64,000 bases of DNA from Ureibacillus massiliensis 4400831 = CIP 108448 = CCUG 49529 (lineage in GTDB: Bacteria > Bacillota > Bacilli > Bacillales_A > Planococcaceae), in contig NZ_JPVQ01000003.1 in assembly GCF_000772965.1 (NCBI RefSeq), forward strand, positions 1 through 64,000. The letters run 5' to 3'. Shown here in pieces: positions 49,752 to 54,193 of the stretch. Position numbers and translations under genes: made by a program. The number at the start of each line of letters is the position of its first letter. Within the stretch, counting starts at the first letter, position 1. The notes below the pieces were generated by a model. That model did not search any database. It worked only from the letters and a program-made list of their open reading frames with translations, and had not been told where the DNA came from.

Positions 49752-50231
49752 GTGAATATCTCAATCATTTCGGTTGGTAAGTTAAAAGAGAAATATTTAA
49801 AAATGGGAATCGACGAATATGTGAAACGTCTAGGTGCCTATGCAAAGATAGATATCATCGAGGTGCCAGACGAAAAAGCACCTGAACAATTAAGTCAAGC
49901 CGAAATGGAAATCGTAAAGCAAAAAGAGGGAGAACGAATTTTAGCAAAGGTTAGCGATGGCATGCACGTCATCGCCCTAGCTATAGACGGTAAAATGAAA
50001 TCCTCGGAAGAACTAGCAGCAGGTTTAGAATCACTCATGACCTATGGAACGAGCAAAATCACTTTTGTCATCGGCGGATCTCTCGGCCTACATGAAGACG
50101 TATTAAAACGCGCGGACGAAAAACTAAGCTTCGGCCGCATGACATTACCCCACCAATTGATGAAGCTCGTATTAGTGGAGCAGATTTATAGGAGTTTTCG
50201 GATTATTAAGGGAGAACCATATCATAAGTAA
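49752..50231 (+). CDS. rlmH: 23S rRNA (pseudouridine-1915-N3) methyltransferase
   Basis: 159 residues. SPOUT-fold methyltransferase, with the trefoil-knot motif [14 protein letters not shown] and the C-terminal [17 protein letters not shown] start with AAAGGTGG. The 3' end is the known attachment site of staphylococcal SCC elements, and an accessory patch follows here too. Confidence 0.97.
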
Positions 50232-50236: not shown

Positions 50237-50255
50237 GTTTAAATAGGAATTTAAG

Positions 50256-50295
50256 AACAGTCTAATTTTAAAATAGATTAGACTGTTTATTTTTC
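50256..50295 (+). terminator. rlmH terminator
   Basis: AACAGTCTAAT (50256-50266) pairs with ATTAGACTGTT (50277-50287), followed by TATTTTTC. Confidence 0.82.
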
Positions 50296-50343: not shown

Positions 50344-51234
50344 ATGAATCTAGATATTATAAGTATTGACGAGTTAAACTTAGAAGTAGAACGTGAAAAA
50401 ATATGTATCAAATATGAAGAAAAAGATAATCTTGATTTGCAGAAAGTTAGAATATTTAAATCTACTTTTTCGAATGTTGGTCTAAAAAAAGCTCAATTTA
50501 ACAGTTGTAGTATAAATAATTCATTGTTTGAAAATTGTTATTTAAGATATGCAATATTTAATAATGTGGATTTAACAGGTTCGACTTTTATAAATTGTGA
50601 CTTATCAAATGTGAAACTTAATTCCTGCAACATCAGATATGTTGAATTTAGAAATTGTCAAATAAATTTAAAAGAAGTATTGGGCTGTTTACCACAGGAA
50701 ACAAATTTAAAAATACAATTATTAAAAGAATTAAGATTAAATCAAATAAGTATTGGTGATAACAAGGGTGCGGACGATTTACTAATAAAAATTCTAGATG
50801 CTGAAAAGGCTTTATTAATGGAGCGTGTAAAATGTGAAACAAGTTATCATCAAGAGAGAGAAGATTTTGTTTCTAGAGTTAAAGCATACTTTAATTATAT
50901 TTTATTAAGTCTGAATGATTTAATATGGGGATATGGTGTAAAATTATCCAGACTTTTTAGAATAGCGCTTACTATAATTTTTATATTTGCTATTCTAATT
51001 TACTTATGTACTGATGCTGAATATATCTCTACAACTATAGCAGGTAATGTTTTAGAAGATTTGAGCTTTTGGGATTCTTTATACGTTAGTTATACTAATT
51101 TTATAACAATTGGATATGGAAATTATATTCCCAACTCTACAGTTACTAAAATTATTTTTGTTACTGAGAATACTCTAGGATATATATTTTTAGGCTTCCT
51201 AGTATCGGGAGTTTATAGGAGAATAGCAAAATGA
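50344..51234 (+). CDS. Pentapeptide-repeat protein fused to a two-helix potassium channel
   Basis: 296 residues. Residues about 35-110 are pentapeptide-like repeats (A/S-x-F/L-x-N/x; for example AIFNNVDLTGSTFINCDLS). A charged helical linker runs about 120-195. The channel module has helix 1 (FRIALTIIFIFAILIYLCT, 205-223), pore and filter TIGYG (255-259), and helix 2 (about 267-291). It is thus an ion channel, probably for K+, with a repeat sensor domain in the cytosol. GGGGGATATACTA precedes the ATG. Overlaps the next gene by 4 bases. Confidence 0.82.
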   Translation: MNLDIISIDELNLEVEREKICIKYEEKDNLDLQKVRIFKSTFSNVGLKKAQFNSCSINNSLFENCYLRYAIFNNVDLTGSTFINCDLSNVKLNSCNIRYVEFRNCQINLKEVLGCLPQETNLKIQLLKELRLNQISIGDNKGADDLLIKILDAEKALLMERVKCETSYHQEREDFVSRVKAYFNYILLSLNDLIWGYGVKLSRLFRIALTIIFIFAILIYLCTDAEYISTTIAGNVLEDLSFWDSLYVSYTNFITIGYGNYIPNSTVTKIIFVTENTLGYIFLGFLVSGVYRRIAK

Positions 51235-51953
51235 TTGAAGAATATAATTTTAATTATATAAAAGGCCTTGAGATTGTAATTATATATGGCTCAATGGCAA
51301 GAAATGAAGCTGATAATAATTCTGATATAGATATTTTTGCTTTAGTAGAAGATTCGCTTACAGAATTCGAGAAAGAAAAGGTAATTGATAAAATTTGTTC
51401 TCTAATTTCTAGTAAAGAAGTTAACGTCTCTTTATATACAAAAGAGGTATTCAACAAAATGTCTAAAGATGGATCTCTGTTTTTATGGCATTTAAAGAAG
51501 GAAGGTAAATATCTTTTTAATAAAAATAATGAAGATATTTTTATAAATCTTGCAAATTTTGATGCCTATCAAAAAAATATGGAATTGTATAGAGATTTAT
51601 TCAACAGTGTTCAGGAGAGCTTTGATGAAAATGGTATAAATAGTTATGACTTATCAATGTTATTTTTCTTATGTAGAAATATGAGTATATTAACTTGTTT
51701 TAGAATAGGTAAGCCTAATTTCGGACGTTATTCTGCATATGAAACCCTTATAAAATATTTAAATTATGAACCCATAAGTTATTTAGACTTCATCTATTTA
51801 TCTAAATGGAGAATCGATTATACTAGAGGTATTGAAGAAGAATTGGTTTATCCTACTAGAGATGAATTAATAAAGATTATAAAAAAAATATCTATATTAT
51901 TTGATGTATGTGAGAACATTATTAATAGTGAGGGTAAAAATGAAAAATATTGA
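51231..51953 (+). CDS. Nucleotidyltransferase-domain protein (MNT/aminoglycoside-NTase type)
   Basis: 240 residues. The polymerase-beta-like nucleotidyltransferase motif GSMARNEADNNSDIDIF (residues 20-36) holds two catalytic aspartates, D32 and D34. The strand expected to bring a third acidic residue reads EVNVSLYT, so activity is uncertain. The C-terminal half is helical, like the HEPN or substrate domain of such enzymes (LCRNMSILTCFRIGKPNFGRY). The ATG overlaps the channel stop (ATGA), and the gene overlaps the next by 14 bases, so the three are translationally coupled. It might modify a small molecule or a partner protein. Confidence 0.75.
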   Translation: MIEEYNFNYIKGLEIVIIYGSMARNEADNNSDIDIFALVEDSLTEFEKEKVIDKICSLISSKEVNVSLYTKEVFNKMSKDGSLFLWHLKKEGKYLFNKNNEDIFINLANFDAYQKNMELYRDLFNSVQESFDENGINSYDLSMLFFLCRNMSILTCFRIGKPNFGRYSAYETLIKYLNYEPISYLDFIYLSKWRIDYTRGIEEELVYPTRDELIKIIKKISILFDVCENIINSEGKNEKY

Positions 51954-52326
51954 CATTTTAAAATCTTTTTATGAAAAAATCAGTAATGATAAATCTATGA
52001 TTTTTAATTATTCAAAAGTTAGCGAATTTGAAAGAAATTTATTTATATCAATATCAAATTTTATCAATGATAAATATGGCTATCAATTGAAGGGATTAAC
52101 TAAATTACATTTTAGTCGATTAAAAAATGCTATTGATATAGAGAATGATGATAAAGCTTTAATACAAAACGCTTTTAAATTAAATTCAATGATAGCTAAA
52201 CGGACTGTTACTATGGGTTACGGTGGCTATGCTGAAAAGAAGATTATAAAAAATTACAAATTAGAGATATTTATTGAAGATTTGAAAGAGTATATAGAGG
52301 AATATGAAAGAAAAAACCTCACTTAG
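51940..52326 (+). CDS. Small unknown protein, third gene of the channel operon
   Basis: 128 residues from ATG 51940, with GTGAGGG close upstream. Mostly helical and lysine-rich, with a distinct motif (IAKRTVTMGYGGYAEKKIIKNYK, near 84-106). I do not recognise the family. The 14-base overlap with the nucleotidyltransferase gene says they work together; a target or antidote role for the NTase is one possibility. Confidence 0.6.
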   Translation: MKNIDILKSFYEKISNDKSMIFNYSKVSEFERNLFISISNFINDKYGYQLKGLTKLHFSRLKNAIDIENDDKALIQNAFKLNSMIAKRTVTMGYGGYAEKKIIKNYKLEIFIEDLKEYIEEYERKNLT

Positions 52327-52346
52327 ATACATTACGGTGAACCGTA
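52315..52346 (+). repeat. Decayed copy of a palindromic repeat
   Basis: 27 of 32 bases match the left arm and loop of the perfect palindrome at 53476-53507, including the 15-base TTACGGTGAACCGTA hairpin. The right arm beyond 52346 is unlike it. It overlaps the end of the operon. Confidence 0.6.
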
Positions 52347-52624
52347 TGGTCTACCCGTCATTACCTTCACCAGATACTGAAAAGAAAAGATAGCCATTCG
52401 TTGTGCGTACCGTAAAGGTGCGCTTATTTTTATATTTCGGGCGTGCTCATAAAGTAGGTGAAATTTCTTTGGTCGGTAGAAATAATTCCAAGACTTTTTT
52501 ATTTTCGGAATAAAGTCACAGAAGCAATGTTGAAGATATTGAAAAAAATTCCACAAAAAGTTAAAATAAGAACAAAAGTTCTGACTTTTGTTATTTATAA
52601 ATTTTGGAGGTGCATTGATAAGTA
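52347..52624. other. Non-coding stretch with hairpin
   Basis: No gene supported. A hairpin AACAAAAGT (52571-52579) with ACTTTTGTT (52584-52592) lies just before a GGAGGTG (52606-52612). Confidence 0.4.
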
Positions 52625-52762: not shown

Positions 52763-52831
52763 AAATTGGAATATATTCGTAGTTTTAAATAAATTACCAA
52801 ATAGAATTATTTAGATGAAATGAGGATAAAT

Positions 52832-53464
52832 ATGGAAATTATATATTTAGTAGTATTTTTTTTATTATTACCAATAATACTAATTGGATTAATTTATGTT
52901 GATAGTAAGAGTAGTTATAATGAAATATCGATTGAAATGTGGACTAAAGAGAGTGGGGAGTTCTATTTCTCAGTTCCTTGTTATATTTGGCAAGAAAGTA
53001 AAAAGAGAAGAGCTAAAGAAATTTATTCACAAAATACAATTCTAGATTTTGATGGGTATAAATATGGAATTACTAATTTAGGTGGGGTATTTCCTAGAAC
53101 AAATGGAGGTTTATTTTTTGAAAGAGAACTACGGTTTTGGGGGATTCCTTTACATGTATTACAGTCAGTTAGAAATACATATTTAACAATAAATCAGTAT
53201 GGATCAGGAATTATAAATATTGAAGTAAATAATAACGAAATTATTAATGAAATTATTAGTATTAAAGAGTATATTTCCAATGATACGCTTATTAATGGAA
53301 TCGATAAAGAAGTAATGAATAACTTTTTAAGCAAGATTTTAAGTGGAGAAAGAATGGAAAGGGGGGAAGCAAAGGCTGCTTATGATACTTTTTTAAAATA
53401 TGAACCTTTACTTAGTTTGTCAGTAAATATTATATCTATTATTAAGGATTTTTTTAGTAAATAA
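52832..53464 (+). CDS. Membrane-anchored protein of unknown function
   Basis: 210 residues from ATG 52832, chosen since AGGAT is 6 bases upstream; an in-frame ATG at 52820 would overlap that site. One N-terminal membrane helix (MEIIYLVVFFLLLPIILIGL), then a soluble beta-rich region (FPRTNGGLFFERELRFWGIP) and a helical end. No family recognised. AT-rich third positions and isolation suggest it is accessory. A strong palindromic terminator follows. Confidence 0.55.
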   Translation: MEIIYLVVFFLLLPIILIGLIYVDSKSSYNEISIEMWTKESGEFYFSVPCYIWQESKKRRAKEIYSQNTILDFDGYKYGITNLGGVFPRTNGGLFFERELRFWGIPLHVLQSVRNTYLTINQYGSGIINIEVNNNEIINEIISIKEYISNDTLINGIDKEVMNNFLSKILSGERMERGEAKAAYDTFLKYEPLLSLSVNIISIIKDFFSK

Positions 53465-53473
53465 ATTTCATTG

Positions 53474-53527
53474 AAAACCGCACTTACACAGGTTACGGTG
53501 AACCGTAACCTGTGTAAGTGCGGTTTT
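53474..53527. terminator. Perfect 25-bp palindrome, terminator-like
   Basis: 53474-53498 pairs without mismatch with 53503-53527 around a TGAA loop. A and T runs flank it on both sides. It is much longer than needed for termination, and a decayed copy lies 1.2 kb upstream, so it may also be a small repeat element. Confidence 0.8.
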
Positions 53528-53575
53528 CTCACTAATGATAATAATCTTTCAAATAGATAAACAGCATTCTATAGT

Positions 53576-53887: not shown

Positions 53888-54193
53888 TTGAACAATGAAA
53901 CCAATATCTTGATTTATCAAACGGAGGAAGGCAATACAAAAATAGATGTTCGTTTAGAAAATGAGACAGTATGGATGACACAAAAGGCAATTGCCGAACT
54001 TTATCAAAAAGGTGTTAATACAATAAACGAACACATAAAGAATATCTATGCAGAAGGAGAACTACAGGAATCGGCAACTATTCGGAAAAACCGAATAGTT
54101 CAAACTGAGGGTAAACGTGAGATATCTTTTTACAACCTCGAAATGATTATCGCTATAGGCTATCGTAATTTACTGCCGAGTGGCGTGCTGTAA
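53888..54193 (+). pseudogene. RhuM-family gene, truncated
   Basis: The N-terminal 93 residues are a good match to the virulence-type RhuM family (VWMTQKAIAELYQKGVNTINEHIKNIYAEGEL, then NLEMIIAIGYR); full proteins exceed 300 residues. After GYR at about 54166 the sequence changes and stops in eight codons, at the joint with the nitroreductase stub. TTG start at 53888 with GGGAGG. Confidence 0.8.

Follow-up and report, generated by a model that had tools for sequence, protein, structure and literature searches.

A probable three-gene sister of the two-gene Hailong phage-defence system in Ureibacillus massiliensis

We analysed the first 64,000 nucleotides of contig NZ_JPVQ01000003.1 of Ureibacillus massiliensis (hereafter, "the window"), which contain an operon of three overlapping genes: a channel gene (gene A), a nucleotidyltransferase gene (gene B), and a gene for a small helical protein (gene C). 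We propose, with a probability of roughly 0.6, that this operon is a distant three-gene sister of the two-gene phage-defence system Hailong and has a similar guard logic. By Hailong we mean the HalA-HalB pair, which we take to be the system of Tan et al. (2025, Nature), represented by NCBIfam models NF051894 and NF051895 and by PDB entries 9nyi, 9dbh, 9dbi, and 9dbj. According to passages in two papers that cite the Hailong work, single-stranded DNA, in the form of polydeoxyadenylate adducts of HalB, blocks HalA, and a phage exonuclease lifts the block (PMC12657230, PMC13275509). The logic of the system is described in citing papers as toxin-antitoxin-like. The operon and its relatives form a sister branch, and not canonical Hailong, because A and B both score far below the curated HalA and HalB cut-offs.

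Genes A and B are distant homologs of HalA and HalB

Genes A (50344-51234; 296 residues), B (51231-51953; 240 residues), and C (51940-52326; 128 residues), each starting with ATG, lie on the plus strand and overlap by 4 bases (A/B) and 14 bases (B/C); the coordinates and open reading frames (ORFs) confirm the three-gene overlap described in an earlier note on this DNA. A mechanical ORF list starts ORF C at a TTG at 51901, not at the ATG at 51940. A purine-rich stretch lies just 5' of each of the three start codons.

Gene A encodes a HalA-like channel with a pentapeptide-repeat helix, a helical linker, and a two-helix pore carrying TIGYG; the earlier note had read the repeat domain and the pore in this gene, and Pfam (Pentapeptide_4, 1.1e-16; Ion_trans_2, 1.7e-9) and the sequence agree with it. 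The HalA equivalog model matches A at 8e-12 and 45 bits, below its curated cut-off of 250 bits, and the predicted structure of A aligns with 9nyi across 271 of 296 residues. The combination of a pentapeptide (crown) region and a pore by which the Hailong channel is recognized is thus found in A, both in the Pfam domains and in the model alignment.

Gene B encodes a HalB-like, Pol-beta-type nucleotidyltransferase (Polbeta, 2.7e-9; NTP_transf_2, 3.1e-8) with the motif GSMARNEADNNSDIDIF, exactly as the earlier note had it. The active-site motif GSX10DXD, which B shares with HalB, has G20, S21, D32, and D34 invariant in the alignment. The HalB equivalog model matches B at 8.1e-16 and 58 bits, below its curated cut-off of 190 bits. 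The overlapping order, channel gene and then nucleotidyltransferase gene, is that of Hailong. In PADLOC, the models that match B are candidates only, PDC-S09 and PDC-M05A scoring best, and A and C match no model. Two further lines were set aside: the third catalytic carboxylate as a discriminator (it is Glu in the canonical HalB of locus L050 and Ser in most other enzymes, and HalB-like enzymes paired with WYL-domain proteins also lack Glu), and a generic HalB family search of 398 genomes of the phylum, which was uninformative (172 matched, none above cut-off; 5 of 14 controls matched).

HalB reportedly primes DNA synthesis on its own C-terminal Tyr. The C-terminal extension that carries this residue in HalB is absent from sister-branch B enzymes, which are 202-258 residues long with a helical C-terminal part. 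A Tyr is present in the last two residues of 7/7 HalB-type enzymes (8/8 counting L049) vs. 2/17 sister-branch enzymes, that is, the window's, which ends in Tyr240, and L051's; the contrast has a Fisher p of 1.0e-4, a value that ignores relatedness, such that the contrast may reflect one event per branch. In a tree of 24 enzymes, the 17 of the sister branch are separated from the seven of HalB type by a branch with support of 100/99, subject to a long-branch warning. The tree and the Tyr count exclude L055, a near copy of L053, and the tree also excludes L049.

In one alternative, B would work like MntA, the antitoxin of the type VII toxin-antitoxin system MntA-HepT: B would adenylylate channel A or protein C, there would be no oligonucleotide ligand, and A-B-C would be a toxin-antitoxin operon with the channel as toxin. 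Both are small modules that join a GSX10DXD nucleotidyltransferase to an adjoining small helical protein, and MntA is reported to attach AMPs to a Tyr of the adjoining HepT (PMC7641770). MntA-HepT thus shows that an enzyme of the GSX10DXD kind can act on a hydroxyl of its partner. The window branch differs from MntA-HepT in that B has a C-terminal helical part and is preceded by a HalA-like channel, and the HepT motif RX4HXY was not found: R-x(4-6)-H is absent from 17/18 C proteins, and where it does occur, in L006, the XY context is missing. We consider this alternative unlikely. The earlier note had likened the operon to toxin-antitoxin or abortive-infection modules; that comparison is supported insofar as A is related to HalA and B to HalB, a channel under a nucleotidyltransferase, and is not supported for the HEPN/MNT type, whose motif C lacks.

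A third gene is present at every sister-branch locus examined

All 18 sister-branch loci examined (the window, L005-L007, L038, L039, L047, L048, L051-L057, L064, L073, and L075) contain an ORF of at least 94 codons that starts from -50 to +6 bases around the stop codon of B. The 18 correspond to ~15 distinct loci, because L053-L055 are nearly identical to one another and L056 is nearly identical to L057. Loci L038 and L039 were found via C, L005 via B and C, and the remaining 14 via A or B; a B search of plasmids yielded six records, all of which were examined. Gene A is complete in 16/18 loci, being split by an IS30 insertion in L048 and cut by the contig start in L055. Identical examination of seven HalB-type loci shows a third ORF at the stop in one (L042, an 86-codon TTG ORF) and none in the other six. 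For the HalB-type set, L041-L046 and L049 were taken from 25 records that match a HalB fragment, 20 of the 25 being listed. The third-ORF arrangement is more than chance (18/18 vs. 1/7), and the operon departs from the two-gene organization of Hailong. The comparison with canonical Hailong comprised two loci, L050 (HalA, 435 bits; HalB, 272 bits) and L049 (HalA, 267 bits; HalB, 185 bits, 5 under the cut-off), and a third gene is present in 0/2: no ORF of at least 80 codons was found near the HalB stop in L050, and the next plus-strand ORF of at least 60 residues in L049 begins ~210 bases beyond the HalB stop. No description of a third gene in Hailong was found in a search of the literature on Hailong and its domains; the founding paper may contain one.

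At the level of genomes, A and C occur in the identical 3/261 genomes of the window's order. In a class sample of 398 genomes, A occurs in three, and a C profile matches two of these; the third, G761, has a divergent third ORF recognized by neither of our C profiles. The profile also matches G948 (5.3e-4), a chance match with stop codons inside and no operon seen among the ORFs there. These results, together with the 18/18 count, bear out the co-occurrence that the earlier note had proposed as a check. The loci come from Bacillota, Alpha-, Beta-, and Gammaproteobacteria, and viral contigs, and some copies lie on plasmids.

C evolves as a protein. Its ratio of nonsynonymous to synonymous differences (pN/pS) is 0.31 against L051 and 0.29 against L038, at a synonymous divergence (dS) of ~0.5, and 0.70 in the very close pair L051-L038 at a dS of 0.11; against L051 and L038, which are the window's two closest relatives, A (0.15 and 0.17) and B (0.24 and 0.18) have lower values. 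Pfam gives no match to C above curated cut-offs, and the protein belongs to no known family; the earlier note had called it unknown. Sub-threshold matches (HIN in Pfam and alpha-amylase in NCBIfam; DUF7660 and others for relatives) are not claimed. The structure prediction for C is confident and helical, and the fold has no significant match in the PDB or among viral models.

Relationships among C proteins are less clear-cut. A comparison by hhalign of Bacillaceae-type with proteobacterial C gives an E of 0.034, a probability of 1.5%, and a score of 17.4, with 60 column shuffles reaching no more than 16.0. In cross-searches of the C profiles neither group recovers the other at an E of 1 or better, one weak match (0.22) being to another frame of L052/L068, and the third ORF of L075 is recovered by neither profile. 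A single C family is suggested and not proven, because its basis is place, size, and a weak score; homology of C across the branch is accordingly weakly supported and mostly positional.

The same data bear on a further alternative, in which C is not a partner of B and is either a regulator of the operon (e.g., a DNA-binding protein) or an anti-toxin that blocks channel A directly. Consistent with this alternative are the faster divergence of C than of A and B and a weak Foldseek resemblance of C to PadR-type regulators and replication terminator protein (E of 0.19 and worse). Set against it are the absence of any Foldseek match at an E of 0.001 or better, low TM-scores, and C start codons that fall at the end of B or within it, a placement that hints at coupling with B and is not proof of a complex. 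We regard the alternative as rather unlikely; resemblances of C to PadR, HEPN, and four-helix proteins are not claimed, and absence from match lists is not used as evidence.

Proposed mechanism

We observe the domains, the homology of A with HalA and of B with HalB, the co-occurrence of the third gene, and the missing extension; the product of B, the gating mechanism, the trigger, the defence role, and the role of C are inferred. The operon probably works in a Hailong-like manner, with canonical Hailong excluded by the cut-off tests and with C as an extra, recurrent component; the same guard logic as Hailong is the best reading because of the homology. At its GSX10DXD site, B would synthesize a polymer of nucleotides, which on the analogy of HalB would be a short oligodeoxyadenylate. 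Channel A would be held closed by this product, bound to the channel's cytoplasmic pentapeptide region. Removal of the product by a nuclease of an invading phage, or cessation of B activity, would open channel A, with ion flow, growth stop, and limitation of the phage as the predicted outcome. C, predicted to be co-translated with B and to work with B, would most likely be a subunit or an acceptor with a part in initiating, retaining, or passing on the product, because sister-branch B lacks the C-terminal extension of HalB.

Several observations weigh against this reading. Every HalA and HalB score in the branch is far below the curated cut-off (26.8-40 bits for the other A proteins, 37-57 bits for the other B proteins); B matches HalB in sequence mainly over the N-terminal 75-90 residues; and the C-terminal Tyr of HalB is missing in 15/17 sister-branch enzymes, so that the DNA-making chemistry of HalB may not carry over. 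The match of the A model to 9nyi is not independent, because the alignment used to model A contained one HalA row. A GYG pore filter is absent in 8 of 14 sister-branch A proteins checked (L006, L007, L047, L053, L056, L064, L073, and L075) and is present only in the six of Bacillaceae type, the window's included; the HalA pore of canonical locus L050 reads FGYTN, and ion selectivity may differ across the sister branch. Finally, a phage-defence role for the branch as a whole is one that we infer.

In a more specific version of the model, C would be a dedicated protein primer ("terminal protein"): B, without the self-priming tail of HalB, would grow the oligonucleotide in trans on a hydroxyl of C, and the C-DNA adduct would plug channel A. 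In Bacillaceae-type C the acceptor would be the Tyr of a hairpin GYG, which in the window's protein occupies residues 93-95 of the predicted structure, and in others it would be the Ser of [ASG][NDG][KDRS]S, both patterns having been written after inspection of the sequences and without a chance control. With the adduct as plug, immunity would be triggered by a phage nuclease or by any agent that removes C; the system would amount to a guard whose DNA decoy is protein-tagged and can be detached. We consider this version quite improbable.

Related enzymes with other partners

In four plasmid loci (L042, L044, L045, and L046), a WYL-domain gene lies in the place of HalA, directly 5' of a HalB-like enzyme. 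These enzymes resemble B in superfamily and in having a partner gene directly upstream. They differ in that the partner is a WYL protein and not a channel, in that the Tyr in the last two residues is kept, in their placement in the HalB clade, and in that three of the four have no third ORF near the stop, the exception being L042, whose enzyme passes the curated HalB cut-off (221 vs. 190 bits). The effectors that Tyr-primed DNA-making enzymes control may extend beyond channels. On a 5459-bp Klebsiella plasmid (L043, 1855-2799), a HalB-like enzyme with a terminal Tyr lies 3' of a DUF1883 gene; the region has at least 10 Klebsiella records among the matches listed.

Genomic surroundings

Surroundings are mobile or defence-rich both in Hailong and in the sister branch. 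The gene rlmH (49752-50231) lies directly upstream of the window's operon, and the operons of L051 and L052 likewise lie shortly after rlmH. The earlier note had called this a known island site: the two relatives support this in part, and no second copy of the rlmH-end sequence stands out in the window, the only sequence searched, where the exact match is at 50214-50231 alone and four matches occur at up to three mismatches (2.0 expected by chance), the other three having 3 mismatches each. A staphylococcal cassette chromosome (SCC)-type element was considered and is not claimed, as direct repeats at both ends were not found within the window and a bounded cassette is not shown. Some relatives adjoin defence genes, in line with the check that the earlier note had proposed: in L051 the operon is separated from rlmH by a Hachiman pair (HamA, 418 bits; HamB, 856 bits), in L038 a type IV restriction gene (1026 bits) is found directly upstream of the operon, and in L047 an LmuA-like gene (165 bits) is found upstream. 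The neighbours tested in L052 and L005 gave weak candidate matches or none. In L007, an annotated exonuclease gene (1207-1770) lies just upstream of the Janthinobacterium operon and is of interest because a phage exonuclease is the reported trigger of Hailong.

These surroundings also bear on the alternative that the operon has an ordinary ion-transport or signalling function and no defence role. The potassium-type GYG filter of six A proteins, and the indirect basis of the phage-defence role, would fit an ordinary function. The rarity of the operon in the order, its occurrence on plasmids, on viral contigs, and beside defence genes, and its homology to a published phage-defence pair argue the other way, and we consider an ordinary function very unlikely.

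On the plus strand, terminator-like hairpins flank the operon, one in the gap between rlmH and gene A (50255-50288; 14 pairs, then T-rich) and one 3' of gene C (52405-52423; 7 pairs), both being consensus matches only; promoter-like matches were uninformative (25 observed vs. 24.3 in shuffles). At 53473-53528, two perfectly matching 27-base arms separated by 2 bases form an inverted repeat that is terminator-like on both strands; one of the arms is 85% like a stretch at the end of gene C (52313-52346). The ORF 3' of the operon (52820-53464; 214 residues) has no match in Pfam, PADLOC, or NCBIfam. A 101-residue ORF 1.6 kb downstream (53888-54193) resembles RhuM/PDC-S05 proteins in their N-terminal part (150 bits) and is probably a remnant, because it is much shorter than most of its models.

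Significance

Hailong is a recent example of immunity restrained by an inhibitory nucleotide. Current HalA and HalB cut-offs overlook the sister branch, whose known loci, as seen here, come from Bacillota and from three pseudomonadotal classes. Because its enzymes mostly lack the terminal Tyr and every examined locus has a third gene, the sister branch raises the questions of which product B forms, how its synthesis is begun, and what blocks the channel.
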